This document shows positions 823 through 58,020 of a stretch of DNA of 64,000 nucleotides, in pieces (position 1 is the stretch's first letter; each line of letters begins with the position of its first letter). The stretch covers positions 62,001 to 126,000 of the forward strand of contig MPDC01000005.1 of assembly GCA_001874255.1 (NCBI GenBank). The letters run 5' to 3'. The stretch comes from Alphaproteobacteria bacterium MedPE-SWcel. Lineage in GTDB: Bacteria > Pseudomonadota > Alphaproteobacteria > Rhodobacterales > Rhodobacteraceae. The notes under the pieces were generated by a model, which was not told where the DNA came from, searched no databases, and was given only the letters and a program-made list of their open reading frames with translations. The translations under genes were made by a program, and so were the position numbers.

Positions 823-906
823 CCCGCCCGCCGCAGGCGCAAACCTGACCGCCGCAGACGCATACCCGCCTGCCGCAGGCGCGAACCCGCCCGCCGCAGG
901 CGCCCC
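823..906. repeat. 21-nt tandem array, four units
   Basis: The core ccgcaggcgc (one copy ccgcagacgc) starts at 831, 852, 873 and 894, an exact 21-nt period. It lies between the convergent 3' ends of purK and the phnM-like gene. No coding role is supported. Confidence 0.85.
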
Positions 907-924
907 CCTGGATCACATCCCTGC

Positions 925-2094
925 TCAGGCGAGAAACCGCGCCGCAACTGGGCCACTCATATAGCTGACCCGCCCGCCCGACAGCGTCGCGGCCACCTGG
1001 TCCTGCGCATCCAGCACCACCAGATCCGCGCGATGGCCGGGGATCAACTCACCCCGATCCGAAAGCCCCAGCACACGGGCCGGACCAGAAGACACCAGCC
1101 CCCAGGCCGCCTCCAGTGGCAAGACGCCCGCCTTTGCCAGCATCAGCGCGGCCCGGCGCGGGCTCGGGTAGTGATAATCCGACGCCAGCGCATCACAGAG
1201 CCCCATGGCGATCAACTCGATGGCCGAGGCATTGCCCTTGTGCGATCCGCCCCGCACCACATTGGGCGACCCGAGGATGACATGGTCGCCCCCCGCCCGC
1301 GCGGCCTCTGCGGCCTCCGCCGTTTCCGGGAACTCCGATATCGCCGCCCCGCGCCCACGCCAGAGGCTGCGGTCCGCCGCGCTGCGGTCATCGTGACTGC
1401 CAAGGCGCACACCCGCCGCCCGCAGCCGCGCACAAAGCGCATCCAGCGCCCCCGGCACCTCGTGGCGGCGGGCATGCAGCTCCAGCAGCATCTCGAAATG
1501 CCGCTCGGGATTGCGCCCTGCCTTCAGGGCCTGCCCGGTCAGGCGCGGCGGCTTCTTGCCCGCCGCCAGCCGGTCGTGCGGCAGATGGTCGTTGAACACC
1601 ACATAGGGCACGCCCCATGCCGCGATCTTTGCCGCCAGCACCTCATAGGCCTCCAGCAGATGGATTTCGAACCGCAACTGCGGCAGCAGATCCGTGACCA
1701 GCTGCTGCCGCACCTCGGCAATCCCCGCAAACACCTGTTCCGCAAAATCCGGCCCGCGCAGGCCCCCCTCCCAGGAATAGAACTGCGCCAGAACCCCGGT
1801 GGTGATGCCATTGGCGGCCAGCTCGGCCTCGGTGGCGCGGATCCCCTGCGCCATCTGCTTCATCGCCCCACGGCGCGGCGCCACATGGCGCTCGAAACCA
1901 TCGCCGTGCAGATCAACGATCCCCGGCAGGATGCGATAGCCGCGCAGGTCCACCTCACGGCCACCAGCGCCGTCCTGCACGACGCCCTCCGCCAGACACA
2001 GCACGTCACCGCGCTCCATCCCGCCGGGCCGCAGCACATCCGCCCCGGTCAACCGCAGCGCCACCGTTCCGCCGGTCCCCCGGTCTCTGTCCAT
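925..2094 (-). CDS. phnM: PhnM-like alpha-D-ribose 1-methylphosphonate 5-triphosphate diphosphatase
   Basis: This is an amidohydrolase-fold protein of about 389 residues. Seen: the N-terminal metal motif GIVDLHGDGFERH, a mid-protein VVFNDHLPHDR segment, GSHDD, the PhnM-type stretch GSPNVVRGGSHKGN and a C-terminal Asp motif LASDYHYPS. In the carbon-phosphorus lyase pathway PhnM removes pyrophosphate from the ribose 1-phosphonate 5-triphosphate intermediate. I chose ATG 2094, preceded by GGAG and 5 nt after the hydrolase stop, rather than the longer frame to 2157, whose extra residues overlap the upstream gene. No other phn gene is in the window, so its substrate here is open. It is probably co-transcribed with the two genes upstream. 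Confidence 0.85.
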   Translation of the reverse strand: MDRDRGTGGTVALRLTGADVLRPGGMERGDVLCLAEGVVQDGAGGREVDLRGYRILPGIVDLHGDGFERHVAPRRGAMKQMAQGIRATEAELAANGITTGVLAQFYSWEGGLRGPDFAEQVFAGIAEVRQQLVTDLLPQLRFEIHLLEAYEVLAAKIAAWGVPYVVFNDHLPHDRLAAGKKPPRLTGQALKAGRNPERHFEMLLELHARRHEVPGALDALCARLRAAGVRLGSHDDRSAADRSLWRGRGAAISEFPETAEAAEAARAGGDHVILGSPNVVRGGSHKGNASAIELIAMGLCDALASDYHYPSPRRAALMLAKAGVLPLEAAWGLVSSGPARVLGLSDRGELIPGHRADLVVLDAQDQVAATLSGGRVSYMSGPVAARFLA

Positions 2095-2099
2095 CTCCG

Positions 2100-2870
2100 C
2101 TACTCCGATCCGTTCAATCCGCTGTCCCAATCCCGCCCCAGGAGCCCGTCCAGCCACCCCAGCGAGGTGTCAAAACGCCCGGTCTCGAGGAATTGCACCA
2201 CCTGCGCAATGACCCGCGGATTGTTCATCATATAGGTATGGGTCACCGGCAGGATCAGCTGCGATGTCATGCCCTCGACCCGGGTGCTCTCGACCGAGAC
2301 CTTGCCGTCATCCTTGCCCGGTATCAGCGCCGAGAACACCGGGTTCAACGATTGGCTGCCCGCGATGATGCCGACCGGGTAATCCACCGGCGGCAACCGG
2401 TTCGGCAGGCTCGACGGGCCGGTGCCCAGCTCCTGCCCCGCAGGCCCGTGCAACAGGTCAAAGACCGCCCAGTCGCCCATTTCATCCACCAGTTCGCTGC
2501 CGCCGTTGGGCGGTGACAGCATCACCACCCGGCCCAGCGTCACCGGCCGCGTATGCGCCAGCCAGTAGCGCACCAGAATGCCGCCCATGGAATGGGTGAC
2601 CAGATGCACCGGCGTCTGGGTGCAGGCGTCAAAGGCCCGCGGCATCACCGCATTGGCCAGCCGCTCCACCGTGTGTTCGGTCGAGGGGTAGCCGGGGCGC
2701 ACCACCTCATAGCCACGCGCCGTCAGCGCCTCTTCCATCAGCAGAAAGGAGGTCTCCGTGCGGGCCAGCCCATGCAACAGGATGACGCAGCCGCTGCCCG
2801 CAGCTGCCGCCATCGGCAGCAGCGCAGGGAAGATCAGGGCCAGAAACCGGGTCAGAAGAATACGTGTCAT
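2100..2870 (-). CDS. Secreted alpha/beta hydrolase (lipase-like)
   Basis: About 256 residues. The N-terminus is a signal peptide (basic MTRILLTR, hydrophobic core, AAAAG). The oxyanion region is [10 protein letters not shown] and the nucleophile elbow is THSMGG, a G/H-x-S-x-G variant seen in triacylglycerol lipase and PGAP1-like enzymes. The His region is probably VTHTYMMNN. An in-frame ATG at 2882 is an alternative start. The reading frame is open much further upstream, but that extension is antisense-type sequence overlapping the transporter. It sits between the EamA transporter and phnM with short gaps, so a three-gene operon is likely. The natural ester is unknown. Confidence 0.75.
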
Positions 2871-2920
2871 GAGGCTGCACATAAGCGCTGCGTGCCGCCA
2901 CGAAAAGCCCCCGCGTGCGG

Positions 2921-4930: not shown

Positions 4931-4932
4931 CG

Positions 4933-4962: not shown

Positions 4963-4990
4963 CGATGTCTCACGCAAATGCGCGGGATGA

Positions 4991-6637
<1,647 letters not shown>

Positions 6638-6986: not shown

Positions 6987-7054
6987 CTTTGCAGCTCCTC
7001 AAAAGGCTCAAAGTGTTTTCTGTTTCCCCACGCCCTGCATGGGCCACGGAGACG

Positions 7055-7081
7055 TTGGCACTCACCTCAGTCGAGTGCTAA
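7055..7081 (-). promoter_or_regulatory. CIRCE operator (HrcA site)
   Basis: TTAGCACTC-N9-GAGTGCCAA on the minus strand. It matches the consensus inverted repeat (TTAGCACTC-N9-GAGTGCTAA) at 17 of 18 arm positions; the groES-proximal arm has C for T. It lies about 70 nt upstream of groES. Confidence 0.95.
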
Positions 7082-7089
7082 CTGCCGGA

Positions 7090-7118
7090 TAGTTAGGCAG
7101 TGTGAAATCATGAGTCAA
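7090..7118 (-). promoter_or_regulatory. Probable groESL promoter
   Basis: TTGACT at 7113-7118 (minus strand), then a 17-18 nt spacer to a weak -10 (TAACTA or AACTAT at 7089-7095). It stands just upstream of CIRCE, so HrcA would sit in the transcribed start region. The -10 assignment is uncertain. Confidence 0.5.
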
Positions 7119-7185
7119 CAAGAATGGCTCGGAAATTTTGATGATTTTTTATGACAGCCTGCCGATCCTCGGTGCCCAGCTTCCA

Positions 7186-7284
7186 CAAGGCCCCTGCAAA
7201 GGCGTGACAAAGGAGCGGCAAAGGGGCGACAAAGGCCGCACGAAGGCGTAGCAAAGGCGCGTCGCAGGGCAGTTGCAGGGATCA
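7186..7284. repeat. 11-nt tandem array, nine units
   Basis: Units beginning caaagg (variants caagg, cgaagg, cgcagg, tgcagg) start at 7186, 7197, 7208, 7219, 7230, 7241, 7252, 7263 and 7274: an unbroken 11-nt period. It lies 30 nt beyond the 3' end of the DUF2161 gene and upstream of the groESL promoter. Confidence 0.9.
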
Positions 7285-7313
7285 TTGCCATAAAAACAAC
7301 CCGCCCATTTCTC

Positions 7314-9393: not shown

Positions 9394-10490
9394 GCGCTCT
9401 GCGGTCCCGCATCGGCGGGTGTTCGATGACAGTGCAGACCGGGCTGAAGGCGCTGTGTTCGGGGCTGTGTTCGGGGCTGTGTCCGGCACTGTATCCGGCG
9501 CTGCTTCTGGCGCTGGCCCTGCTGCTCACCCCCGGCCCCCTGGGCCCCGGCGCGGCCTATGCGCGCTGCACCGGGATCGACCTGCGCGACCATCTGACCA
9601 CAGAGGCCCGCACGCGGCTCGATGCGGAGATGGCAAAGGTCCCCTTCAGCCTCGGCAATCACTGGATCGCCACCAAGGGCAACCGCCGCCTGCATATCAT
9701 CGGCACCCAGCACAGCGGCGACGCCCGCATGTTGTCGATGATGGGCGATATCCGCCCGCTGATCCGGCAGGTGGATGCGGTTTTCCTGGAGGTCACAGAG
9801 CCGCAGATGCTGGCGGCCGACAGCAATCAGGAGGCCTTTGGCCAGTATTTTCTGCTGCCCCCCGGTCAGCGGCTGGACCGGATGATGTCGGCCTCCGACT
9901 GGACCCAACTGAGCGCCCGGCTCGCCATGCTCGGCATTGCCCCCGGCGCGGCCGCCCAGATGCAGCCCTGGTACCTGTCGGATTTCCTGACCGGCACCGA
10001 CTGCCGCAAACGGGGGTTCGGCACCCGTCGCGGGCTGGATGACCGGATCGAACGGGTCGCCCGCCGCAATGGCATTGCCACCCTTGGCCTGGAACAGCCC
10101 GAAGCCGGGCTGGCGGCGCTGGCGGCGATGCCGATTGCCGATCAGCTGCAGATGCTGCTTCTGGATTTGCAGAGCGAGACCCGCCACGAGGATCTATATG
10201 TCACCCTCTCGGAATCCTTCTTTGACGGGCGGCTCAGCGAGGGGCGCATTGTCATGAGCTGGATGATCTATCGCGATCTGCCGGTGCCGCGCCGTCAGGT
10301 GCAGCGGTTGCTGCGCAGTTTCGACCGGTCCGTTCTGGACCGGCGCAACCGGGCCTGGGTGAACCTTCTGGAGACCCGCCCGGAGCAGAGCCTTCTGGTG
10401 GCGGTCGGGGCGGCGCATCTGGCGGGCGATGCGGGGCTGTTGAACCTGCTGGCCGCGCGGGGCTACCGGCTGACGCCCGCAGCGGACTAG
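9390..10490 (+). CDS. TraB/GumN family protein, second copy
   Basis: 366 residues from GTG 9390, or 354 from ATG 9426. It is a diverged paralogue of the upstream gene: shared TGIDLRD start of the domain, LHIIGTQH (His shifted relative to GTMHL), EVTEPQ, MQPWYLSDF and C-terminal VGAAHLAGDAG. The export signal is a four-residue repeat coded by 12-nt units, with two Cys-containing copies. Tandem overlap with the first copy suggests the two products act together, perhaps as a pair in the periplasm; that is inference. No partner gene of known function is adjacent. Confidence 0.85.
   Translation: MSALRSRIGGCSMTVQTGLKALCSGLCSGLCPALYPALLLALALLLTPGPLGPGAAYARCTGIDLRDHLTTEARTRLDAEMAKVPFSLGNHWIATKGNRRLHIIGTQHSGDARMLSMMGDIRPLIRQVDAVFLEVTEPQMLAADSNQEAFGQYFLLPPGQRLDRMMSASDWTQLSARLAMLGIAPGAAAQMQPWYLSDFLTGTDCRKRGFGTRRGLDDRIERVARRNGIATLGLEQPEAGLAALAAMPIADQLQMLLLDLQSETRHEDLYVTLSESFFDGRLSEGRIVMSWMIYRDLPVPRRQVQRLLRSFDRSVLDRRNRAWVNLLETRPEQSLLVAVGAAHLAGDAGLLNLLAARGYRLTPAAD
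9455..9526 (+). repeat. 12-nt in-frame coding array in a signal peptide
   Basis: Units start at 9455, 9467, 9479, 9491, 9503 and 9515: gtgttcggggct twice, then gtgtccggcact, gtatccggcgct, gcttctggcgct, ggccctgctgct. The array forms the hydrophobic core of the second TraB/GumN signal peptide. Confidence 0.9.
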
Positions 10491-10501
10491 CCCCCCCGCC
10501 G

Positions 10502-10555
10502 GTGGCACCGACCTCGCAGGTGGCACCAGCTCCGCAAGTGGCACCCGCCCCCGCA
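10502..10555. repeat. 18-nt tandem array, three units
   Basis: The core gtggcacc starts at 10502, 10520 and 10538, each followed by a related ctccgca-type stretch. It begins 12 nt after the stop of the second TraB/GumN gene. Confidence 0.8.
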
Positions 10556-10713
10556 ACTGACTCCAGAATTCGCAGCCTCCCGGCAGGGGGCAGCAGATCA
10601 GGAACCGCCCGCGCGTCTGCCTGATTTTTCGTCTTGCCCGGCCACGCGCCATGCACATCGGACAATGCCGCCTCCCGCCAGGGTCTGCGGGTGCACTCGG
10701 CGGTACTGGCGGG

Positions 10714-10741
10714 GTGACAAACCACACGCCGCTGCTATAAC
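10714..10741 (+). promoter_or_regulatory. Probable ppaC promoter
   Basis: GTGACA (10714-10719), a 16-nt spacer, TATAAC (10736-10741): five of six matches to each sigma-70-type box. The ATG of ppaC is 36 nt downstream. Confidence 0.55.
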
Positions 10742-10776
10742 GCGCGGCGACAGACTCGTCAGACAGGATTGAGCAT

Positions 10777-11697: not shown

Positions 11698-11745
11698 ACC
11701 CGGTCTGGTCTCGGACTGGTCCCGGTCTTGTGATCCGACCCGCAA

Positions 11746-11771
11746 CGCCCCCTCCCGCGAGGGGGCGTTTT
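11746..11771 (+). terminator. Rho-independent terminator of ppaC
   Basis: Perfect 9-bp stem cgccccctc / gagggggcg with a 4-nt loop, then TTTT. Confidence 0.9.
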
Positions 11772-11781
11772 GCGTTTGCAG

Positions 11782-11919
11782 GCCCAGTTGAGCGGTCTGG
11801 TTGCGCGGCCCATCGTGCGGCCCGTCAAGTGGCCCGTCAAGTGGCCCTTCGTGCTGCCCGTCCTGCGGCCCGTCCACCGTGCCCGTCTACTGTGCCCGTC
11901 TACTGTGCCCGTCTACTGT
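11782..11919. repeat. 12-13 nt tandem array covering the M48 stop codon
   Basis: The core gcccgtc (or one-base variants) starts at 11808, 11820, 11832, 11844, 11856 and 11868 (period 12), then 11881, 11894 and 11907 (period 13). Two weaker 13-nt units precede from 11782. The last unit contains the stop codon of the leftward M48 gene at 11913-11915. Confidence 0.9.
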
Positions 11920-12749
11920 ACTGGACGCAGGTCGATCCGCGCGTCGATCTCTGCCTTGGTGGCCAGCACGGTGGCCACGCGCTTTTCATCCGGCGGATGG
12001 GTTCCCCAGAAGGAATAGCGCCCCGCAGCCGTCCGGGTCGGTTCCGGCCGGGCAAAGAACTTTGCCCCCTCAACCGGGTCATAGCCCGCCGACACCGTGA
12101 TGCGGGTGCCGAGCGTGTCGCTCTCCAGCTCGTAGGCCTGCGAATAGGCGATGGAGCCCGCCGCCGCGCCCACGCCGAGCCCGACCTCCACCGCATGGCC
12201 GTCATAGTCGCCCGCCGTCGCCGTCGCCACCCCGGCAAGGACGCCGACCAGCAGCGCCCCCGCCAGCATCTGTTGCTGCTGCTTTTCGATGTGGCGCCCG
12301 ATCAGGTGACCGTATTCATGGGCCAGAACAAAGGCGACTTCGTCATCGCTGGCCGTATCCCGGATCAGCGGCAGCGAGATGCGGATGGTCGGCTGGGTCT
12401 CCGCATAGGTGAAATAGGCGTTGCGCTCTGCCATCTCGCGGTCGATGGCAAGGTCGACATTGCAGTTGAACCCGGCCCGGTCCGCCGTCAGACGCTGGCA
12501 ATATTGCCGCCCCGCCGCCGAGACACGCGGCGCCACCCGGTTGAACCGCGCCTGCGCCGCCCCGGCCGACAGCGGCGCCCGGGCCGGTTCCCGGCGGGCC
12601 TCGGCAAACAGACGCCGGGCCTCCTCGGTATGAACGCCGCCGCTGTCGGGCAGCTGATAGGTGGTGCCACAGGCCGCGACGAGCGCCAGCGCAGCGCCCC
12701 GCAACAGCTGCGTCAGAGGCCGGGGCATTCTGCCTGTTCTGCGGGGCAT
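11913..12749 (-). CDS. M48 family zinc metalloprotease lipoprotein
   Basis: 278 residues from ATG 12749, which has GAAAGG 7 nt upstream; ATG 12764 is the alternative. A lipobox (LVAAC) after a short hydrophobic stretch predicts a lipid-anchored envelope protein. The catalytic HEYGH (HExxH) lies in VLAHEYGHLIGRH, with a downstream ELESD glutamate as third zinc ligand, and a C-terminal GTHPPDEKR typical of HtpX/BepA-like M48 enzymes. Such proteins degrade or mature envelope proteins. A small hydrophobic glycine/alanine segment follows the active site. The gene is flanked by tandem arrays on both sides. Confidence 0.88.
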   Translation of the reverse strand: MPRRTGRMPRPLTQLLRGAALALVAACGTTYQLPDSGGVHTEEARRLFAEARREPARAPLSAGAAQARFNRVAPRVSAAGRQYCQRLTADRAGFNCNVDLAIDREMAERNAYFTYAETQPTIRISLPLIRDTASDDEVAFVLAHEYGHLIGRHIEKQQQQMLAGALLVGVLAGVATATAGDYDGHAVEVGLGVGAAAGSIAYSQAYELESDTLGTRITVSAGYDPVEGAKFFARPEPTRTAAGRYSFWGTHPPDEKRVATVLATKAEIDARIDLRPVQ

Positions 12750-12772
12750 CCTGAAACCTTTCATATGAACAT

Positions 12773-12820
12773 GCCTGTCTTTCTGCCTGTCTTCCCGCCT
12801 GTCTGTCTTCCCGCCTGTCT
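12773..12820. repeat. 12-nt array upstream of the M48 gene
   Basis: gcctgtct recurs at 12773, 12785, 12797 and, after a 4-nt extra, 12813. Confidence 0.75.
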
Positions 12821-12840
12821 GTTGACGTGCTGCCTGCGAG

Positions 12841-12906
12841 CTGGCGACCTCCGGCCAGCGGACTGGCAACCTCCTGACAGCAGCCTGCCAGCGGGCTATC
12901 GGCAGG
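12841..12906. repeat. 22-nt tandem repeat
   Basis: ctggcgacctccggccagcg at 12841 and ctggcaacctcctgacagca at 12863 are the same 22-nt unit with few changes; a weaker third copy starts at 12885. Confidence 0.7.
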
Positions 12907-12969
12907 CGTCCGGCAGCGCGCCAGAGAGCTTATCACGCTTGCGATCTGCGGCAAGGCCACGTATGCCCC

Positions 12970-13017
12970 AGATCTGCGCACAGGTCTTCGCCCAAGTCTG
13001 CACCCAGGTCTGCGTAC
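12970..13017. repeat. 12-nt tandem array, four units
   Basis: agatctgcgcac, aggtcttcgccc, aagtctgcaccc and aggtctgcgtac follow one another at 12970, 12982, 12994 and 13006 with no spacer. It sits 135 nt upstream of the helicase start. Confidence 0.85.
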
Positions 13018-13151
13018 TGGCAAGGCTCCGCCGGTTGACGCAAGGCAGCCATGCGCGCGCATGACACCGGTTGTGCTATACAAAGCGATCGGCCTGCGTT
13101 ATACGCGCGACCTTCACCCATCTCAGCGGCGCCTTGTTCGCCCTTTTGCCC

Positions 13152-15221
13152 ATGATCGGAATGCCCACTTTGAAACCCTCCCTGCAACAGGCGCTCGAGC
13201 GCCGTGGATACACGTCCCTCACCCCTGTGCAGGAGGCCGTGTCCGACCCGGAGCTGGCGGGCCTGGATCTTCTGGTGTCGGCGCAGACAGGATCGGGCAA
13301 GACCGTGGGCTTTGGCCTCGCCATTGCTCCGACCCTGCTGGGCGAGGACGACCGGTTCGACCGCGCAGGTGCGCCGCTGGCCCTGGTGATCGCCCCCACG
13401 CGCGAGCTGGCGCTGCAGGTCAAACGCGAATTGAGCTGGCTCTATGGCGAGGCGGGCGCGGTTCTGGCGTCTTGCGTCGGCGGCATGGACATGCGCGATG
13501 AACGCCGCGCGCTGGACCGGGGCGCCCATATCGTCGTGGCCACCCCCGGCCGTCTGCGCGACCACATCACCCGCGGCTCGATCGACCTGAGCGGCGTTGC
13601 GGCCGTGGTGCTGGACGAGGCGGACGAGATGCTGGACCTCGGCTTCCGCGAGGATCTGGAGTTCATCCTGCAGGAGACCCCCGAAGAGCGCCAGACCCTG
13701 CTGTTCTCGGCCACGGTGTCCAAACCCATCGCCGCGCTGGCCAAGACCTACCAACGCGACGCGCAGCGGATCTCGACCATTTCGACGGGCACCCAGCACA
13801 GCGATATTTCCTATCTCGCCCATGTGGTTGCGCCGCATGATGCGGAAAACGCCATCATCAATGTGCTGCGCTATCACGAAGCGCCCAATGCCATCGTCTT
13901 TGCCAATACCCGCGCCGCCGTGAACCGGCTGCTGACGCGGCTGTCGAACCGGGGCTTTCAGGTGGTGGCGCTCTCGGGCGAGCTGAGCCAGGCCGAGCGC
14001 GCAGGCGCCTTGCAGGCGATGCGCGACGGGCGCGCCCGGATCTGTGTGGCCACCGATGTGGCGGCCCGGGGCATCGACCTGCCGAACCTCGATCTGGTGG
14101 TCCATGCCGACCTGCCGTCGAGCCACGAGACCCTGCTGCACCGCTCGGGCCGCACCGGCCGGGCCGGACGCAAGGGCGCCAGCGCGCTGATCGTCACGCC
14201 CCGGTCGCGCCGCAAGGCAGAGCGGCTGCTGCGCGAGGCGAAGCTGAACGCCGAATGGCAGGACGCCCCCTCGGCCGATGCGGTGCGCGACCGCGACATG
14301 GAGCGCATGCTGGCCGATCCGGTCTGGACCGAGGATGGCCCCGAGAGCCAAGCCGACACGCTGGCGAAACTGGTCGAGAGCTTCTCGGCCGAGCAGCTCG
14401 CCGCAGGCTACCTGCGCCTGTGGTCCGCCGCCCGCTCCGCCCCGGAAGAGCTGACAGAGCCCTCCGAGGCCGACCGCAAACCCAAGGAGCCCCGCGCCCC
14501 CTTCGGCCCCTCGGTCTGGTTCTCCATTGCCGGCGGCTACAACGCCGGCGCCGACCCGCGCCGCCTGTTGCCGATGCTCTGCAAGGCCGGTGGCATCGAC
14601 AAGACCGCAATCGGCGCCATCCGCATCCAAGATGACGTCAGCTATGCCGAGATCGTCGAGACCAAGGTCGACGTTTTCGTGACCAGTTTGGGCACTGACA
14701 TGGCGCTGGACGACGGCTCTGTGCTAGAACGGCTGGCGACCGCGCCGAACCTGCCGGAACGCCAGAAACCACCCTTCCGCAAGGGCGGCGGCAAAGGCGG
14801 CTACAAGGGCGGTGAGCGTGGGGATCGTGGCGGCGACCGTGGTGGGGATCGCGGTGGGGATCGCGACTTCAACCGCGGCCCGAAGCCAAGCCGCGGCCCG
14901 CGCCCGGAGCGCAGCGGCGAGGCGCCGGAACGCGCGGTCAAGGCACGGCCTGCAAAACCACGCAGCGGCGGCGACAAGCCCGCTTTCGACAAGCCGCGTG
15001 GTGACAAGCCCCGGTCAGATAAGCCGCGGTCGGATAAGCCGCGGTCGGATAAGCCGCGGTCGGATAAACCATGGGCCGACAAGCCTCGGTCTGACAAACC
15101 CCGCTCGGACAAAGCCAAAGGCCCGCCGCCGCCCAAGGGCAAACCCTCCAGCAAAAAGAACAAGGCCCGCAGCGCCTCCGATACCTCCAAGCGCTTCACG
15201 CCCCCCAAAGCGAAGGGCTGA
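13152..15221 (+). CDS. DEAD-box RNA helicase with DbpA-type RNA-binding domain
   Basis: 689 residues from ATG 13152 (ATG 13161 also possible). Helicase motifs in order: Q motif LTPVQEA, AQTGSGKT (Walker A), PTRELALQ, TPGR, DEAD (VLDEADEM), SAT, and HRSGRTGRAGRKG. A DbpA-like RNA-binding domain follows (VWFSIAGGYNAGADP to FVTSLG). The last 150 residues are a basic, disordered tail of Gly-Asp-Arg and then DKPRS repeats. The layout matches CsdA/DeaD-like enzymes that remodel rRNA or unwind structured mRNA in the cold; which one is not decidable from sequence. The frame stays open to 13071 but without family similarity. Confidence 0.92.
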   Translation: MIGMPTLKPSLQQALERRGYTSLTPVQEAVSDPELAGLDLLVSAQTGSGKTVGFGLAIAPTLLGEDDRFDRAGAPLALVIAPTRELALQVKRELSWLYGEAGAVLASCVGGMDMRDERRALDRGAHIVVATPGRLRDHITRGSIDLSGVAAVVLDEADEMLDLGFREDLEFILQETPEERQTLLFSATVSKPIAALAKTYQRDAQRISTISTGTQHSDISYLAHVVAPHDAENAIINVLRYHEAPNAIVFANTRAAVNRLLTRLSNRGFQVVALSGELSQAERAGALQAMRDGRARICVATDVAARGIDLPNLDLVVHADLPSSHETLLHRSGRTGRAGRKGASALIVTPRSRRKAERLLREAKLNAEWQDAPSADAVRDRDMERMLADPVWTEDGPESQADTLAKLVESFSAEQLAAGYLRLWSAARSAPEELTEPSEADRKPKEPRAPFGPSVWFSIAGGYNAGADPRRLLPMLCKAGGIDKTAIGAIRIQDDVSYAEIVETKVDVFVTSLGTDMALDDGSVLERLATAPNLPERQKPPFRKGGGKGGYKGGERGDRGGDRGGDRGGDRDFNRGPKPSRGPRPERSGEAPERAVKARPAKPRSGGDKPAFDKPRGDKPRSDKPRSDKPRSDKPRSDKPWADKPRSDKPRSDKAKGPPPPKGKPSSKKNKARSASDTSKRFTPPKAKG
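14973..15107 (+). repeat. 15-nt in-frame coding array in the helicase tail
   Basis: Nine units start at 14973, 14988, 15003, 15018, 15033, 15048, 15063, 15078 and 15093; three in a row are identical (gataagccgcggtcg). They encode DKPRS-type pentapeptides. Confidence 0.9.
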
Positions 15222-16852: not shown

Positions 16853-16992
16853 CCCCGACCTGCAAATGCAGACGGGTGAGACGCGCTGCGGCGTGAGGCG
16901 GCGACCGCCGCGGAGTTGATCGGCGGTGCGTAGTGTCGCATCCGCCTCTCCGGGCTGCGCGCGTCCGAGCTGCTGGGTCAGCCTGTCCGGCA

Positions 16993-17048
16993 GGCCAAAG
17001 AGTTCGGGCCAACGATCTCAGGCCAACGATCTCAGGCCGAAGAGTTCA
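16993..17048. repeat. 14-nt tandem array, four units
   Basis: ggccaaagagttcg, ggccaacgatctca (twice), ggccgaagagttca at 16993, 17007, 17021 and 17035; a partial unit follows. Confidence 0.9.
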
Positions 17049-17368
17049 GGCGGACGACAAGGGAAGCGGTACCGCTTGGTGTCTGGAGGATGGACAACCC
17101 CCGCGAGGGTTGCTCGGTTCAACATCTGCTGAGCGACCCCCTTTTCATCGGGGCCGGTCTCCGTTTGTTTGACGCATGGTTGCCCACAGCAGCCCATGCG
17201 TCCCCTCGGGTTTGATCGATCCGCCCCATCCTAGCAGCGCGAGCTGTCTGAAGGGTGACACCGGCGACCGCAGAGGGCGCAACATCACGCCCCCGGGTCG
17301 CGCGACCACCCGGGAGTGACCGCCTCCGGCGGAGGTATTTGGGAAAAGATGAAAGCCACCGGTGTGTC

Positions 17369-17416
17369 TGAACCCCGCCCTGAACCCCGCCCTGTGCCCC
17401 AACCTGTGCCCGAGCC
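17369..17416. repeat. 12-nt tandem array
   Basis: tgaacccc at 17369 and 17381, then tgtgccc at 17393 and 17405: exact 12-nt steps. Confidence 0.8.
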
Positions 17417-17435
17417 GTCCCATGTGGTGGCGTGC

Positions 17436-17497
17436 CCGTTGCATGACCGTTGCATGTCCGTTGCGTGTCCGTTGCGTGTCATACAGCGTCATACAGT
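17436..17497. repeat. 11-nt array followed by a 10-nt doublet
   Basis: ccgttgc starts at 17436, 17447, 17458 and 17469 (11-nt steps). gtcatacag follows at 17478 and 17488 (10-nt step). Confidence 0.85.
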
Positions 17498-17615
17498 GCC
17501 GTAAAATGTCGTGGCCCGGGTCGTGCCCAGGGGCCTGCCGGTTTATGGGCGATGGCGGGCGATCGCACATCCCATACCCCTTGCACCACCCTGCCCCGGT
17601 CGCTAGGGAAGCACC

Positions 17616-21711: not shown

Positions 21712-21769
21712 AGGCACGCCGCCTGCCCGGCGCCCGGGAGACCCATCGCGAAGACCCATCGCCCCGTTT

Positions 21770-21817
21770 GGCAAACTGTCAGGAAAACTGTCTGGCAAGC
21801 TGTCTGGCAAACTGCGC
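21770..21817. repeat. 12-nt tandem array, four units
   Basis: ggcaaactgtca, ggaaaactgtct, ggcaagctgtct, ggcaaactgcgc at 21770, 21782, 21794 and 21806. Confidence 0.92.
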
Positions 21818-22056
21818 CCGGCGGGGCTTTTCTATCGGCGGCGCTCTGCCGCCGCCATCGGCAACCGCGCGGCGCGCCTTGCCCCGGATCCCTTCCTGCC
21901 GAGGCTCTGGTGACAGGCATGTCAGGGGCGCGGGTCGCTTTCCCCCTGCGGAGACGCTCTGCGCGCGCGGGATGGCCACCGCTGCACCGGATGGCTGCAT
22001 CGCTCAGCCGAAGGGGGCAATCCCTCCGTTTGCGCTGCCCTGTTCCTGGCCCGTGC

Positions 22057-22250
22057 CTACCCTGCCCCTGCCCCGTACATGTCCTGACCTGCTCCTGCCC
22101 GGTCCCTGTGCAATCCCTGCCCCGTCCCTGTCCGGCCCCCGTCCCTGTCCGGCCCCCGTCCTGCCCCTGCCCGGTCCCTATGGGATCTCTGTGCGATCTC
22201 TGTGCGATCTCTGTGCGATCTCTGTGCGATCCCTGCCCCGTCCCTGACCT
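22057..22250. repeat. 11-nt tandem array, about 17 degenerate units
   Basis: Units of the type NNtccctgNcc step by 11 nt from 22057 to 22133, then one 17-nt duplication (cgtccctgtccggcccc), then 11-nt steps resume at 22140, 22151, 22162, 22173, 22184, 22195, 22206, 22217, 22228 and 22239. Four of these in a row (from 22184) are exactly gatctctgtgc. Confidence 0.9.
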
Positions 22251-22402
22251 GTCCCCCCACCTGCGGCGCATCTGAACTGCGGCGGCGGCGGGACCAGCCG
22301 TCTTCCTGTTACATTGGCTTGCTAGGCGGGCGGGGCATCCGGGCATCGCCCTGCCCCGTCACACACGTCATCCAAGCCTCCAGAAAGGGATTTGAAGACG
22401 CC

Positions 22403-23002: not shown

Positions 23003-23065
23003 TCGCATCGCCCGGCGCACAGGACAGGCGCACAGGACCGGCGCCGGGCTGAAATCCCGAACCAC

Positions 23066-23098
23066 GCCCTGCGACAGATCGTCTGCAGGGCCTTTTTT
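23066..23098 (+). terminator. Rho-independent terminator
   Basis: gccctgc / gcagggc stem enclosing gac-agatc-gtc, followed by six T; 64 nt after the membrane methyltransferase stop. Confidence 0.85.
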
Positions 23099-23305
23099 GT
23101 CTGCATTTTTCCCGTCCGCCCCGCCCCTGGCGTATCAACACACGAGTTTCCCTTGCCCTTCAGGGCATCTTCAGGCACCAATCCCGCGATTGTGCACAGG
23201 ATGCACCCGAGTTTGACCGCCGGGCCGCCCGCAAAAAGGGTGACCACCCGCCCCGCCACAAAGACTGACACGACTCCGAGACAGACAAGACAAGGACTGA
23301 CACCT

Positions 23306-26328: not shown

Positions 26329-26668
26329 GATCCGGCAGGCAGAATCGTGGCCAAGAGCGGGGGGCTCCCGCGCCTGCGGCGCGCGGCTTTGGCGCTCCGG
26401 AGCGAGCGTCGCGCCCAGGTTGCGGCAAGCGCCACCCGCACGTCTTCCCCGAACGGGGGAGACGTGCGCGGCCCAACGGGCGTCCGCGGCCCAACGGGCA
26501 GCGGCAACGGGCGGGAGCGCCCCCTTGCCCCGGCGCGACGTTCCTTCGCTGAATGCCAAGGGTCTTGTCTGATCCGATGTGATCTGTGACAAACCTGTTT
26601 CAAGCCCCAAGCCACGACAGATCCCGTCCGCCCCCGTCAGGTTCGGACCCGTGATCCAGGAGAGACAC
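26329..26668. other. GC-rich intergenic region with REP-like palindromes
   Basis: Contains a 14-bp hairpin (26437-26450 with 26455-26468, one G-T pair), an 18-nt doublet of cgcggcccaacggg (26467 and 26485) and the palindrome gggcgggagcgccc (26509-26522). The set recalls the element at 49514-49572. No gene seen. Confidence 0.65.
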
Positions 26669-28856: not shown

Positions 28857-28898
28857 ACGACCGGTTTGTGATCCCGGATCATCGACCTGCGAGACAGC

Positions 28899-28930
28899 AA
28901 AAAGCCGGGCCTCATGTGCCCGGCTTTTTT
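28899..28930 (+). terminator. Rho-independent terminator after the DUF427 gene
   Basis: 12-bp stem aaaaagccgggc / gcccggcttttt, 7-nt loop, T run; A-rich on the other arm, so it could work in both directions. Confidence 0.95.
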
Positions 28931-29080
28931 GCAACAGTTGGCCCCGGAGTTTCAAAGCCCCGCCCACAATTTTCAACTTTGTGAATAGGGATCGCGAACC
29001 AAAGGCAAATTGGATTCATGAATGTCGGGTCCCAAGCCGCTTCAGACGCGGCAGGGACGGGCCACCTTCGGCGGCATATC

Positions 29081-29275
29081 CTAGTTTGGCAAAACCACAT
29101 CACTCAGGCTGCGGCGGATCTTATCGGCCCCATCCCGCCCCAGAGCATTCTGGGAATTACATGTAGTTTCAACGACGTAGTCGATAAGAGCCGTCAGTGC
29201 GGCTCGCTCGTTTTCCTGCTCTTTATTCGCCCTCAGGGACGAGACCTCAGCGAGGCCAGCTGCTAAAGCACGCAT
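29081..29275 (-). CDS. Possible small helical protein, unrecognised
   Basis: 64 residues, predicted by eye to be mostly amphipathic helix, with balanced charge (NKEQENERAALTALIDYVV) and one Cys. No family recognised and no good Shine-Dalgarno sequence. It looks more protein-like than its neighbours in other frames and lies in a DNA stretch of atypical composition. May be a gene remnant or spurious. Confidence 0.3.
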   Translation of the reverse strand: MRALAAGLAEVSSLRANKEQENERAALTALIDYVVETTCNSQNALGRDGADKIRRSLSDVVLPN

Positions 29276-29414
29276 TATTGATGTCCACCCGGTGCCTGCT
29301 ATCGTTAACCTTTTTTTATAGAAGTGCCCGGATTAACCATTGTTATCAAGTCTAAAATGGGGGCGGGCCGAAATATAGAATCGATATCTCGCAATTGAGC
29401 AGCAGCCAGACCGG

Positions 29415-29458
29415 CAAGCACAGGACAGGTACGGGGCAGGTACGGGGCACGGCAGGGC
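29415..29458. repeat. 11-nt tandem array
   Basis: caagcacagga, caggtacgggg (twice), cacggcagggc at 29415, 29426, 29437 and 29448. Confidence 0.85.
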
Positions 29459-29624
29459 GAAAAACACCTCGGGTTCCGGGGCGCGCGCGCCGCAAGAGCC
29501 GTATACCAAAAGCGGATTGGTGCTTGTTTTTCATGCGCTGTGGGCACCGCGGCAGAGGCTGCGATGCCTGTCGGGACGGATGCGCGCGCCCGGGATATGA
29601 CCCCGGCCCGGAGGTCTCATGCAA

Positions 29625-39742: not shown

Positions 39743-40668
39743 GAGGCGTCCTCCACCAACCAGGCGCAGAACCGGCCGAAGGTCATGCCGCAATAGTCCG
39801 CCTGCTCCGGGGTGAGCGAGGTTGGCGTCATGCCCGGCTGCGTGTTGGTCTCCAAGAGGACCAGCCCCGCCGCGCCGCGGGTCTCATCCCAGCGGAAATC
39901 GGTCCGGGACACGCCTCGGCAGCCCAGCACAGCATGCGCTCTGGTGGCATAGTCCAGACAGAGGGCGGTGATCTCCGCCGGGATGTCCGCCGGGAGCACA
40001 TGGCGCGAGCCGCCCTGGGCATATTTGGCTTCGTAGTCGTACCATCCGTCGGTGAGGATATCGGTCACGCAGAGGGCGCGGTCGCCCATGACGGTGACGG
40101 TCATTTCCCGCCCCGGCGCATAGGCCTCGACCATCACATGGGCGGGCATCTCATCCGAGAGTTGCGGCGGGCTGTTGGCGGCCTCATGGACGATATAGAT
40201 CCCGACGCTGGAGCCCTCGTTGTTGGGCTTCACCACATAGGGCGGCGCGATCACATGGCGCGCCATCACCTCGGCCTTGTCGGCGATCACGCTGTCGACG
40301 ACCGGCAGGCCGGCGGCGCGATAGGCCGCCTTTGAGCGTTCCTTGTCCATCGCAAGCGCCGAGGCCAGCACCCCCGAATGCGTGTAGGGCAGGCGCAGCC
40401 ATTCGAGGATCCCCTGCACACAGCCATCTTCGCCCCAGCGCCCGTGCAGGGCATTGAAGACCACATCCGGTTCTATCTTCTGCAACTGCGCCACGAGATC
40501 CGGGCCTGCATCGACCTCGACCACCTCGTAGCCTTCGCCCCTCAGTGCGACGGCGCATTCGCGCCCCGTGGACAGCGACACCTCGCGTTCAGCAGAGGGG
40601 CCGCCCATCAACATCGCAACCTTCGGGAGTGTTCTACTCGCTCCACCCACGATCACTGCCTCAATCAT
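39730..40668 (-). CDS. ddl: D-alanine--D-alanine ligase
   Basis: Up to 312 residues. ATP-grasp fold: [36 protein letters not shown], and the metal-binding ETNTQPGMT. Joins two D-Ala for the peptidoglycan stem. Start uncertain: ATG 40668 has no ribosome site and directly follows a hairpin, whereas GTG 40650 has GAGG 8 nt upstream and would drop six residues. Confidence 0.96.
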
Positions 40669-40671
40669 ATC

Positions 40672-40719
40672 CGGGCGTTCACGCCCTCTTATTGGCGGGC
40701 GCTTGCGCCCTTTATATGT
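40672..40719. repeat. 24-nt tandem duplication, each copy a hairpin
   Basis: cgggcgttcacgccctcttattgg-type unit at 40672 and its variant cgggcgcttgcgcccttta at 40696. Copy 1 forms gggcg/cgccc, copy 2 gggcgc/gcgccc; the loop and arm changes preserve pairing. They end 4 nt from the annotated ddl ATG. Confidence 0.8.
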
Positions 40720-40742
40720 CGCGGAGCCGTTGTCCGGCCCTC

Positions 40743-40764
40743 ACTTCGCCTGTACTTCGCCTGT
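40743..40764. repeat. 11-nt doublet
   Basis: acttcgcctgt at 40743 and 40754, identical. Confidence 0.85.
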
Positions 40765-40981
40765 CATCCGCACCAATGCGACCGATCAGATCTGCACCCC
40801 GCTTCGGCGCAGCCTCATCTGCATCCTGCGCATTTGCGCCCAGATAGTGACTAAAACCTTACGGTTTCATTAACCAAAGTAACCGCAGCACCGCGCGGCC
40901 ACGCCGGACACATCTGCAACACGGAATTCACGAAACACCCTCAAAACGGCTAGTTTATTGTATTTAGCGGCTTTTTCAGGG

Positions 40982-41908: not shown

Positions 41909-42089
41909 GGAGGCGTGTCCCGTCAGAGTTGCGCGATGGGTGTACTGGAACCGGCCCGGAGAGAAAAGGGGGAAGCGGCGGGAGGGCGGCAGGGAGGGCG
42001 GAGGGGGGCGAAAGACGCGCCCCGCTGGCCAGCCCCCCGCATATAGTCGGCACATATAGTCGACACATACAGGCCGACCGGACCCGGTG
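41909..42089. other. Gap between murB and the DUF2484 genes
   Basis: 181 nt with a purine-rich stretch of ggagggcgg-type repeats (about 41962-42010) and a 13-nt array at 42040-42078. No gene. Confidence 0.6.
42040..42078. repeat. 13-nt tandem array, three units
   Basis: catatagtcggca, catatagtcgaca and the decayed catacaggccgac at 42040, 42053 and 42066. Confidence 0.85.
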
Positions 42090-46359: not shown

Positions 46360-46538
46360 GGTTTTACTGCCTTGGGTTGTGCCAATTTTGCCTCGAGTAT
46401 ACCCCGTTTTCGGGATTTATTACTCAAACCCTAACCCGGTTGGACGGCACAGGCCAGCCTCTTCCTGCCGTGGTGCGCGTAAAATCCCTATCACGGGGGC
46501 AGAGCGCCGCGTTTCGCGCAGTTGCGCGCTCCCCTCAC

Positions 46539-46593
46539 CCGCACGGGCACGCAGGGGCACGCACGGGTTGCGCACGGGTTGCACGCTGCAGGC
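46539..46593. repeat. 11-nt tandem array, five units
   Basis: Units at 46539, 46550, 46561, 46572 and 46583; gcacgggttgc is identical in the third and fourth. Ends 12 nt before the flavoprotein ATG. Confidence 0.85.
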
Positions 46594-46604
46594 TTTCGTG
46601 TTCG

Positions 46605-47789: not shown

Positions 47790-47876
47790 GTCCTGGGGCT
47801 GAGACTTTGGGCTGATACCTGAGATCTGAAATTCGGGGCTGAAATTCGCGACTGAGACTTGGAACTGAGATCTGGG
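47784..47876. repeat. 13-nt tandem array beginning on the flavoprotein stop codon
   Basis: The core NNctga recurs at 47784, 47797, 47810, 47824, 47837, 47850 and 47863 (13-nt steps, one of 14). In the first unit the tga is the stop codon of the flavoprotein gene (47787-47789). Confidence 0.9.
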
Positions 47877-47954
47877 GCAACCCGGCGCGCAGTCGCCCCC
47901 ACGGATCATCAGTAGTCCGTTATGCGCCGGGGACCCCGCGCCACGGCGCCCGCC

Positions 47955-49358: not shown

Positions 49359-49661
49359 GCCCTACCTCGCCTGTCGTCCTTGATCTGCGGCGACCTTGCA
49401 CCTGACGGCCCGCGATTTGCAAGCACCACCGGCGCGGGTCCCGCTCCGCCTGCCCGGCGGCGCTGATGTGCTGCGCAGCGCCTCGCCCCCTGCGGGAGCG
49501 CGCGCAGCGCGCCCGGCCCAACGCTTTGCGCCGTATCGTCAGATGCGGCGCAAAGGGGCGGGAGCGCCCCCCTCTTAGCAAAAGCCCCCCGGCGCGGCAC
49601 AATCCCGGCGGTCTTTCCCATCTGCCCGCCCGTATTGGGTCAGTATTGGGTCAGTATTGGG
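49359..49661. other. mraY-murD intergenic region
   Basis: Holds a REP-like GC-rich element (49514-49572) and the 11-nt array on the mraY stop codon (49633-49665). No gene and no assignable promoter, although a 303-nt break inside a tightly packed cluster is unusual. Confidence 0.6.
49514..49572. repeat. REP-like palindromic element
   Basis: cggcccaacg, then the 10-bp inverted repeat ctttgcgccg/cggcgcaaag (49524-49533 with 49546-49555), then gggcgggagcgccccc. The first and last parts recur in the same order at 26467-26524. Confidence 0.65.
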
Positions 49662-49665
49662 TCAG
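49633..49665 (-). repeat. 11-nt array beginning on the mraY stop codon
   Basis: Minus strand: ctgacccaata three times without change. The tga of the first unit (49662-49664) is the mraY stop codon. Confidence 0.95.
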
Positions 49666-53657: not shown

Positions 53658-53671
53658 GAGGGTCCCACCGA

Positions 53672-55803: not shown

Positions 55804-56789
55804 CGGGTCTCTTTCAACTGCGGCATGCTCAGGTCTTTGGCAGAGATCTCCACGGGGGCGGCATCCGTGCGCCGACCCACCCGCAGCCGTGCCGAGCGCG
55901 ACCGTGGGTTCTGGGCCAGCTCTTCGTCATCCGGCCCCACCGCCTTGCGGGTGACCAATTCGAATTGGCTGGGGGTTTCGACAATTTCGGGCGCATAGCG
56001 ATTGGCATTGCCGGTCTTGTTGGCCCGATGCTGAAAGAACCGCTTGACCATCCGGTCCTCGACCGAATGGAAGGTCACGACGGCCAGCAGGCCACCGGGC
56101 TTCAGCGCCCGCTCGGCGGCCAGAAGCCCCCCCATCAGCTCTTCATATTCACCGTTGACCGCAATCCGCAGCGCCTGAAAGCTGCGGGTCGCGGGATGCG
56201 ATTGCCCGGGCTTCGCACGCGGCAGGCAGCTCTCGACGATCTGGGCAAGACGCAGGGTCGTGGTGATCGGCTCTTCCGCACGCGCGGATACAATCGCCTT
56301 GGCAATACGGCGGCTGGCCCGCTCCTCGCCAAAGTGGTAGAGAATATCCGCGATCTGCACATCCGTAAGCTCGGCCACCAGATCCGCAGCCGACGGACCG
56401 TCCTGGCTCATCCGCATATCGAGGGGGCCGTCCTTCATGAAGGAAAACCCGCGCTCCGCCAGATCCAGCTGCATCGAGGAGACGCCGAGATCCAGAACCA
56501 CGCCATCGAGGTCGCTGGCATAGTCATCCATCTGCGAGAACACGCCCTGCTGCAGCACCAGCCGGTCCCCGTATTCCGCCGCCCAGGGTCGGGCCATTTC
56601 AAAGGCAAGAGGGTCGCGATCGACGCCGATCAACTGATCCGCGCCCGCCGCCAGCAGGCCTTTGGTGTAGCCCCCCGCCCCAAAGGTTCCGTCCAGCCAA
56701 CGCCCCGTGACCGGCGCCACTGCGGCAAGCAGCGGCTTCAGCAACACGGGAACATGGGGACCGGAGTGTTTGGGCGTGCGGTCCGTCAT
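55800..56789 (-). CDS. rsmH: 16S rRNA m4C1402 methyltransferase RsmH (MraW)
   Basis: 329 residues. [10 protein letters not shown] start, [16 protein letters not shown] (SAM site), [28 protein letters not shown] and [14 protein letters not shown]. Methylates C1402 in the ribosomal P site. Starts 3 nt after the mraZ stop. Confidence 0.98.
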
Positions 56790-56792
56790 CTG

Positions 56793-57296
56793 TTATGCGC
56801 CTCCGGCGCCGTCTAGGAATTCCATCGGGTCGAAGTCGTCCGGAAGCTCTTCCATCAGCTTCTCCGCTTCGGCCATTTCGACCTCGTCGTAGGTCTCGGG
56901 CTTCCAGATCTGGAAGGTGTCGCCAGAGGCGATGAAAAAGGCCTCGCCCTGAAGGCCGACCTTCTGGCGCAACTTTGCGGGCAGCACAAGACGGCCGGTC
57001 TCATCCACGGTTGTCGGCAAGGATTGGCCGTTGAACATGCGTTCCAGGATCTTGCGCCCCTTCGAGCCCCGCGGCAAGGCGGCGATCTTGGCATCGACCT
57101 CTTCGATGGCTTCCATGGTGAAACATTCAAGATACTGACGGCGGTGATCTCCGTAGACGATCACCAGCTCCGGGTTGTCGCCGGGCTGCCAGTTCGGGTC
57201 GGAGGATTCCAGCACACGGCGAAAAGAGGCCGGAATAGACACCCGCCCCTTGTTATCCACCTTATGCTGGCTTTCGCCTCTGAACCTGCGGCCCAC
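56793..57296 (-). CDS. mraZ: Transcriptional regulator MraZ
   Basis: 167 residues from a GTG at 57296 with GGAAGGAC upstream. Two SpoVT/AbrB-like halves: KVDNKGRVSIPASFR and VDETGRLVLPAKLR. MraZ binds repeats upstream of its own gene and regulates the dcw operon. First gene of the cluster. The acidic tail (EELPDDFDPMEF) is longer than in enteric homologues. Confidence 0.97.
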   Translation of the reverse strand: MGRRFRGESQHKVDNKGRVSIPASFRRVLESSDPNWQPGDNPELVIVYGDHRRQYLECFTMEAIEEVDAKIAALPRGSKGRKILERMFNGQSLPTTVDETGRLVLPAKLRQKVGLQGEAFFIASGDTFQIWKPETYDEVEMAEAEKLMEELPDDFDPMEFLDGAGGA

Positions 57297-57390
57297 TGTG
57301 CCGTCCTTCCCGCGCCCCTCGCGCCTCTACTCCGACCGCAGGCCGGAGCTCAAAACCAAAAGGGGCGAGCTGATCCGCTGCCACTGATCA

Positions 57391-57411
57391 ACCCGCCACC
57401 TTGACCCGCCA
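57391..57411 (-). promoter_or_regulatory. Candidate MraZ operator
   Basis: Minus strand: TGGCGGGT-N5-TGGCGGGT, about 95-115 nt upstream of the mraZ start, followed by a further TGGC. Known MraZ sites are short G-rich direct repeats spaced by about 5 nt upstream of mraZ. Confidence 0.4.
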
Positions 57412-57901
57412 TGCGGGGTGTCCGACTGCGCGCGCCACCTGGGGGGATGTCTGCTCGCCCGCGCGCCGGATCTCTTGCCTGAATGAATGCGAAGGCCTGT
57501 ATGGAACCTGCCGTTTTGTAAGGTTGGGGTCGTTTTATGCCCCGATGCTCTTCGTTTTCATCCGATGACATAGGAATACATGGGAATGCATGGTCCAGCA
57601 AGCCACTTTCACCTCCCATTAAGCAAGAATCAGCAAAACGAGTCCGAAAACGGCGAGGATCTCAAGAGGAAAATTCACTTCGCTCCATATGTGGTAGGTC
57701 TTTGGCAGTGCGCCACAAAATACATGCATTCGATGTTTTTGACAATTTGCCCGTAAATTCCCAGCCAGATCAGCAGCCGCCCCGCTCCGACATCTCCTAT
57801 CGCATTGTGTTTTTCTTTTGTTCTCAAATCGGGAGGGTCTTCTGCTGCAAAACATGTCTCCGAGCCGGGCAAAGTGATTCGCTTCGCAAGACAACAATCC
57901 C

Positions 57902-58020
57902 GGCCCATAATTTCCCATGGCCCGTAATTTCCCATGCCCCAGCCCGCATGCAGCGTGACTGTTGTAGCGTGTGTGTAGCGTGACGGACTTTTTTGCAGTG
58001 AATTACAGACTTTTTTACAG
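57902..58020. repeat. Group of small direct repeats near the prophage end
   Basis: ggcccRtaatttcccat twice (57902, 57919; 17 nt); gtagcg at 57964 and 57975 (11 nt); gacttttttRcag at 57986 and 58008 (22 nt). Confidence 0.8.

Follow-up and report, generated by a model that had tools for sequence, protein, structure and literature searches.

The window analysed here, a stretch of 64,000 nucleotides from Alphaproteobacteria bacterium MedPE-SWcel (bases 62001-126000 of contig C45 in a 4.08-Mb draft genome of 54 contigs), was found to carry many short-period tandem arrays, mainly between genes. These arrays look like the product of a recent, size-specific mutational process that is filtered by selection, and not like a conserved binding site. 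The genome belongs to the genus Tritonibacter, in which it was placed by means of named loci, and genome G010 represents its sister species. The best explanation is that a recent process of this kind acted in the lineage of these two species, to which we give a probability of about 0.62; that the arrays come from a size-specific duplication process is, taken by itself, very probable.

Number, size and reading frame of the arrays

Genes were called with a purpose-made codon-usage caller rather than taken from public annotation; with this caller some starts may be wrong and some genes overlooked, which makes "intergenic" an approximate term. Tandem Repeats Finder (TRF) at a score of at least 40 revealed 28 window arrays that lie wholly or mostly between genes. 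Confined to the intergenic pieces, it found 26 arrays, while dinucleotide shuffles gave 0.46 on average and never more than 2 in 50 trials, and at a score of at least 30 the window gave 79 rows, overlapping rows counted. The arrays were found across the sampled genome and not in the window alone: a 440-kb sample contained 54 intergenic arrays at a score of at least 50, far more than in 20 shuffles, which gave 0.5 on average and never above 3, and 198 arrays were counted at score 50 within 971 kb. Most of the sample came from the beginnings of contigs, together with contigs C1 and C45, and was not drawn at random; array density differed by locus, from 0 to 380 per 100 kb. A first-pass annotation of the window had described a window-wide family of arrays and had proposed a comparison with shuffled DNA; both the family and its excess were borne out.

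The period, given there as mostly 11, 12 or 13, held for 19 of the 28 arrays (nine of period 11, five of 12 and five of 13); periods 17 and 18 occurred twice each, and periods 10, 14, 15, 16 and 21 once each. The range of 4 to 17 units was set too high, since the longest of the 28 arrays had 5.9 units. Overlapping TRF rows of lower quality in the window reached 6.8 and 8.3 units (period 11-12) and 11.8 units (period 6, 61% matches), and the array with the highest unit count seen by TRF in the genome sample, 14.9 units of 13 nt, lay in a divergent gap (L019:3061-3254). Most TRF array rows were imperfect. In having head-to-tail units of about 10 bp or longer, the arrays resemble minisatellites, or variable-number tandem repeats (VNTRs); they are minisatellite-like and probably made by an unusually size-limited, lineage-restricted process. 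An autocorrelation excess at lags 11-13 was present in this genome and was of similar size in Rhodobacterales having few arrays. In other Rhodobacterales it amounted to 3.6-4.9%, with Shimia and Cognatishimia foremost, despite few or no arrays. Because this excess is not specific to array-rich genomes, we relied on counts of TRF arrays, of lag-based high-scoring segment pairs and of exact doublings.

The units, first described as unrelated between loci, were not wholly so: CAG/CTG was mildly enriched, occurring in 157 of 226 units compared with about 112 for pieces drawn at random from intergenic DNA and 125 after the units were shuffled. No longer word common to most units was seen, in a check for dispersed repeats made without a full all-against-all comparison, and one 301-base array region had just two weak matches elsewhere in the genome. 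The A content on the strand as given was 0.201 in units and 0.195 in intergenic DNA. An enrichment of CTGTC/GACAG was rejected as array-specific, since it was about twofold over shuffles in most Rhodobacterales groups; it was independent of the arrays, and Ruegeria and some congeners were near 1.

The narrow size range was most evident from exact doublings. For the genome comparisons described from here on (relatives, gap types and size classes), intergenic pieces longer than 1,200 bases were removed. Net of shuffles, exact doublings of 9-17 bp numbered 79 per 100 kb of intergenic DNA in this genome and 57 in the sister species, as against 2 in 14 other Tritonibacter and -1 in Leisingera/Ruegeria. 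Repeats of one, two, three, four or 5-6 bp showed no matching rise in the two genomes relative to the relatives. In the same order of genomes, the net values were 13, 10, 4 and -6 for the 7-bp class and 3, 8, -1 and -1 for the 8-bp class; the 18-40-bp class, in which multiples of shorter units are counted, stood at 13 and 3 and at zero elsewhere. The periods of the exact intergenic doublings in this genome were 9 (7), 10 (7), 11 (11), 12 (14), 13 (10), 14 (4), 15 (7), 16 (3) and 17 (3), with four longer. Among the clean two-copy events, 14 of 17 had an end match of at most 3 bp.

Selection appears to filter the products of this process, as genes retain almost only in-frame doublings. In coding DNA, the period was a multiple of three for 30 of 31 exact doublings of 10-26 bp (20 of 21 in this genome and 10 of 10 in the sister species), whereas in intergenic DNA the share was near one third (33 of 90; 22 of 62 and 11 of 28). 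The arrays behaved likewise: periods divisible by three were found in 12 of 13 coding arrays of the window, in 37 of 39 coding arrays of the 440-kb sample at TRF score 50, and in 38 of 40 and 17 of 19 TRF coding arrays of this genome and the sister species, respectively. The first-pass annotation had proposed a coding-frame check, and coding arrays did behave differently. Its suggestion of a length-biased duplication process also gained support, as doublings of 9-17 bp were strongly raised and those above 17 bp slightly, repeats of 1-6 bp showing no matching rise, with a frame filter in genes. TRF density further depended on gene orientation, with 241, 96 and 61 arrays per 100 kb in convergent, co-directional and divergent gaps of this genome and 216, 70 and 46 in those of the sister species.

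Distribution among relatives and turnover between the sister species

The sampling of arrays took in 15 of the 17 Tritonibacter congeners, with G003 and G014 left out, and one genome per species was compared. Among the sampled genomes, the array-rich trait is restricted to this genome and its sister, in line with a duplication process raised in these two and not in other sampled congeners. At TRF score 50, intergenic density per 100 kb was 114 in this genome and 100 in the sister species, as against 30 in T. horizontis (G015; three arrays), 0-25 in six other congeners, 3 in seven pooled congeners and 0 in Leisingera/Ruegeria. Period-tolerant counts net of chance revealed the same distribution, with 151 and 150 per 100 kb in the pair, 17 in 14 other Tritonibacter pooled, 6 in Leisingera/Ruegeria and 14 in other Rhodobacterales. 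Exact intergenic doublings of 10-26 bp numbered 40 in 49.9 kb and 22 in 42.0 kb in the pair, 3 in 107 kb of 14 congeners and 0 in 32.3 kb of Leisingera/Ruegeria. Base composition does not explain the array density, since the GC-rich congeners G005 and T. horizontis equal or exceed this genome in guanine-plus-cytosine content.

Outside the genus, five loci of other Rhodobacterales (L101, L080, L096, L107 and L064) each carried two or three arrays within roughly 2 kb of intergenic sequence, and the trait may have arisen outside this Tritonibacter pair too. When three array-bearing contig stretches were used as queries against a plasmid collection, no record spanned 80% of the query.

The arrays turn over, and many differ between the two sister species, whose genomes differ at about 10.7% of aligned positions. 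In ten matched regions that were inspected, many stretches between conserved blocks could not be aligned, and the arrays were located there. Among 107 matched intergenic regions, arrays were present in both species in 15, in this genome only in 17, in the sister only in 6 and in neither in 69, which corresponds to an odds ratio of 10 (p 1e-5). The 15 shared regions compared with 8.3 expected given region length (P 0.0004) and with 10.7 expected given length and gene orientation (P 0.014); the excess thus shrinks under these controls and is partly due to permissive long convergent gaps. In 12 of the 15 shared regions, the units were at most 0.65 alike, a value that 94% of 210 unmatched pairs did not exceed either; among these 12, one region (11698-11912) appeared related by eye. 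In the other 3, the units were at least 0.8 alike, as in 1.4% of unmatched pairs, so some arrays are older than the species split or share a seed.

Origin of the doublings and competing explanations

The steps by which the arrays could form are proposed as follows. Strand-displacing synthesis from a nick or gap, or fill-in of a short staggered break, would cover about one helical turn. If the displaced or filled patch were sealed rather than removed, a tandem doubling would result with little need for end homology; the doubled stretch could then slip to further units, and these would afterwards diverge through point mutation. An Okazaki RNA primer or flap and a bacterial excision-repair oligonucleotide are candidates for the source of the patch, with sizes that would match. 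The double copying of such a patch, made in repair or replication and about a helical turn in length, is a tentative suggestion. It is offered just as tentatively that the lineage acquired a mutator copying one such patch independently of Ku and of long homology, which by analogy might be a bacterial counterpart of the eukaryotic small tandem duplication pathways.

Several observations weigh against a recent, size-specific process peculiar to this lineage. T. horizontis may be intermediate, with three arrays in 3.1 kb at one locus; three arrays were also counted there in 10.2 kb of stretches partly overlapping this locus. The period spectrum of exact intergenic doublings in the sister species was flatter than that of this genome, with 9-12 and 15-16 represented (9: 8, 10: 6, 11: 6, 12: 6, 13: 1, 14: 1, 15: 4, 16: 3, 18: 1). 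The effect of gap type was weaker for exact doublings than for TRF arrays, with 89, 56 and 47 in convergent, co-directional and divergent gaps of this genome and 90, 37 and 60 in those of the sister; the convergent excess persisted, and the order of divergent and co-directional gaps was inconsistent. In about 214 kb of alignment between the two species, only 5 of 14 intergenic insertions or deletions of at least 8 nt with well-aligned flanks were tandem duplications, and 0 of 9 coding ones of at least 8 nt were scored as such. Zero end match occurred in 4 of the 17 clean events, compared with 9.1 expected, and an end match of at least 6 bp in 3 of 17, compared with about none; as these matches are longer than chance, some homology-aided slippage is likely. 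CTG/CAG showed no preference for the leading or lagging strand relative to GC skew and so gives no help to a primer-site model. Finally, no causal gene difference was found among the few genes examined.

With regard to those genes, no match to a Ku counterpart was found in 18 of 18 Tritonibacter genomes, this one included, and Ku-dependent end-joining was rejected for this reason. RecJ, the large subunit of exonuclease VII and RNase H were present in both array-rich genomes as in congeners, and each of the two had two matches to IMS-domain (Y-family) polymerases, which we take to be DinB and ImuB. Loss of any of these was therefore rejected as the cause; the sole exceptions were G014 (67% complete), which gave no match to exonuclease VII or RNase H and just one of the two IMS matches, and G006, in which one IMS match was missing. 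Reverse transcriptases were present in this genome and absent from the sister species, and hence are not correlated with the trait. A long open frame at xseA in both genomes was also set aside, the part in the sister species lying upstream of the apparent normal start. In flap-processing mutants such as yeast rad27/FEN1, unremoved flaps can yield duplications; the present genome differs in having an open frame for DNA polymerase I that includes the 5'-3' exonuclease domain.

DNA polymerase I, a candidate chosen beforehand, had 16 substitutions shared by the two genomes in residues 27-954, and 12 of these fell in the 5'-3' exonuclease part, to which six other lineages contributed 8 of their 52 (Fisher p 1.8e-5). 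Relatives vary at each of the 12 positions, and 6 of them carry residues unseen in the 12 outside and congener sequences compared. The ratio of amino-acid to four-fold differences was about 0.28-0.30 between this genome and congeners and 0.03-0.31 between congeners. The signal is confounded, because the exonuclease part is unusually alike in some congeners, the positions are variable and the ratio lies at the upper end of the congener range without exceeding it; a change in the exonuclease as the cause is thus not supported. At the polA loci (L232-L237), some congener pairs differed much less in the exonuclease part than in the remainder (four-fold difference 0.17 as against 0.37 in G005-G009), as if this part had been spread by recombination. 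RecJ showed no changes in the two species like those of polymerase I in a comparison of six genomes.

Among the other explanations, an increase of ordinary replication slippage through some general defect of repair, for example loss of mismatch repair, is unlikely. Partial extra units in many arrays, the ability of an existing repeat to slip to higher copy number and the clean doublings with end matches of at least 6 bp all agree with it. Slippage and mismatch-repair defects hit short units most, and because the 1-6-bp classes showed no matching rise (the mismatch-repair genes themselves were not searched), general slippage fits poorly. About equally unlikely is the idea that arrays form at a normal rate and that relaxed selection or weaker deletion lets them persist in the two species. 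Genes and, in the TRF counts, divergent gaps did hold fewer arrays, and the intergenic share of the two genomes (0.11 and 0.15) was inside the range of relatives, as weak removal would allow. Under weak removal, however, all repeat sizes should rise, yet those of 1-6 bp did not, and exact and hence young doublings were raised too, not just old ones.

Transposase footprints, in which target duplications of 9-17 bp are left after excision, are improbable. A staggered cut followed by fill-in would yield duplications independent of the unit sequence, whereas target duplications are usually nearly fixed in length and the array periods vary widely. That the arrays are binding sites kept by selection and phased along one face of the DNA is very improbable, and the first-pass suggestion of protein binding was not supported. 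The periods are near one helical turn, and arrays recur in the same regions of both species beyond the effect of length and orientation. Against this, the periods spread over 9-17 with a mode of 12 and do not centre on 10.5 or 21, the two sister species have differing arrays, the units in 12 of the 15 shared regions were no closer than those of unmatched pairs, and arrays were nearly absent in the 14 sampled congeners; neither the period nor the conservation between relatives was thus that of a helically phased binding array. Rho-utilisation (rut) sites, in which C-rich RNA has regular pyrimidine-C steps at a spacing similar to 11-13 and with which some C-rich arrays after stop codons agree, were rejected as the least credible source, since C exceeded G in transcript sense in only 16 of 29 co-directional arrays of this genome and 7 of 14 of the sister species, that is, without bias, the coding strand of the nearer gene was the C-rich one in 7 of 19 and 11 of 23 convergent arrays, and relatives nearly without arrays presumably also use Rho (which was not searched).

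Individual arrays, published parallels and significance

The arrays of the window were described at first as intergenic, which is true of most of them. A 21-nt array of 3.9 units (823-903) lies in the convergent gap 745-924, and a related 21-nt array was found in the sister species. Farther along, the intergenic stretch 6987-7313 holds 5.9 units of 11 nt (7197-7261), unmatched in the alignment with the sister, and 10491-10776 holds 2.8 units of 18 nt (10496-10545). In the convergent gap 11698-11912, 5.8 units of 12 nt (11805-11874) are largely absent from the aligned sister sequence; they are followed by 4.0 units of 13 nt (11868-11919), which overlap the convergent gene by 7 nt and have related units in the sister. 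The divergent gap 12729-13151 contains 2.5 units of 16 nt (12783-12822) and 4.0 units of 12 nt (12967-13014), the latter with a related 12-nt unit in the sister. Three arrays share the stretch 16853-17615, with 4.4 units of 14 nt (16991-17051), about 3.7 of 12 nt (17368-17411) and 4.1 of 11 nt (17436-17480), the last unmatched in the sister.

The intergenic gap 21712-22402 is array-dense, with 3.8 units of 12 nt (21769-21814), 2.5 exact units of 17 nt (22120-22161) and 4.7 near-exact units of 11 nt (22184-22235), all found by TRF, and about two units of 13 nt (21739-21762). The genes flanking this gap match distant places in relatives (for example 2177449 and 688329 on contig C3 of G009, and separate contigs in G010 and G015), so the gap is also located at a rearrangement junction. 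Downstream, TRF revealed 2.4 units of 13 nt at 23014-23044 (intergenic 23003-23305), 2.1 units of 18 nt at 26463-26499 (intergenic 26329-26668) and two exact doublings of period 11, one at 29426-29449 in the convergent gap 28857-29624 and one, without extra end match, at 40743-40764 (intergenic 40615-40981). The stretch 41909-42089 has 3.2 units of 12 nt (41975-42010) and 2.3 units of 13 nt (42040-42069), and overlapping arrays of periods 10 and 11 occupy 46540-46582 in the divergent gap 46360-46604. A further 2.3 units of 13 nt lie at 47826-47855 (convergent gap 47790-47954), and 3.1 exact units of 11 nt at 49632-49665, unmatched in the sister, extend up to the 3' end of a minus-strand gene. 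The last stretch, 57297-58113, holds 2.4 units of 17 nt (57902-57941) and weaker arrays of periods 11-13 and 22 (57952-58020).

The first description did not hold for some arrays, which are coding; for example, the period-9 array at 4997-5032 on the minus strand encodes Gly-Gly-Met repeats at the end of a Cpn60/GroEL gene (Pfam family), and the arrays at 14779-15113 on the plus strand (TRF periods 12, 15/45 and 21) are in the tail of a DEAD-box helicase gene. TRF also found 5.6 coding units of 12 nt at 9449-9515 on the plus strand. The Pfam matches of ten window proteins were all to familiar enzyme or chaperone families.

The closest published parallel seen is that of the Borgs, archaeal extrachromosomal elements with many recent, independently arising arrays that are virtually absent from host genomes, according to the accessible part of the paper (PMC9879509). 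That part describes units virtually all unique per genome, partial flanking repeats, and arrays both intergenic and in open reading frames, where unit lengths are divisible by three. The arrays here are likewise recent, independent and rare in relatives, and the divisible-by-three units in genes recur in the exact coding doublings. In contrast, Borg units are perfect, A-enriched and, in the part consulted, 18-21 nt long, whereas those here are in a bacterial genome, mostly imperfect, mostly of 9-17 nt and not A-enriched on the given strand. Among titles on bacterial and intergenic tandem repeats, we recognised none besides the Borg paper as the present phenomenon.

A survey of prokaryotic satellites and VNTRs, as far as its accessible part goes (PMC6749651), reports tandem units of 10-200 nt, the short ones intergenic and some families limited to a single species, with medians of 0-3 satellites per Mb; short ones are often related to microsatellites, as in a Burkholderia example derived from 6-8-nt units. 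Under the size and copy limits of that survey, we counted 31.9 satellites per Mb in this genome and 15.5 in the sister species, while other Tritonibacter gave 3.4, further Rhodobacterales 3.5 and Leisingera/Ruegeria 0; these counts were made by TRF with coding DNA included, and the survey used another method. On this comparison, the present arrays differ in their higher density, without a matching rise of short repeats. Mammalian small tandem duplications arise from staggered-break fill-in and required Ku80 in the cells studied, in the portion of that report accessible (PMC8355091). They resemble the present arrays as short head-to-tail doublings that slippage does not explain, and differ in that the Tritonibacter genomes gave no Ku match. 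Within the genus, 98 tandem repeats in total were given for one T. mobilis genome (PMC11225332), with settings that may differ from our TRF count, and repeat-linked insertions and deletions, such as A-run changes in a phage repressor, were reported in a Tritonibacter population (PMC10090143). The accessible parts of these two papers do not describe the present pattern, which is no proof of its absence.

A mutation type limited mostly to 9-17 bp and, in the sampled genomes, to two sister species is a natural experiment, in which the gene that differs should name the enzyme preventing double copying of a patch. The arrays would supply a ready set of variable-repeat markers, and a duplication process of this kind would account both for how quickly intergenic DNA turns over and for how repeats arise in proteins. 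If the mutator is real, it keeps rewriting the intergenic DNA of both species while sparing shorter repeats, and it feeds in-frame repeats into their proteins.

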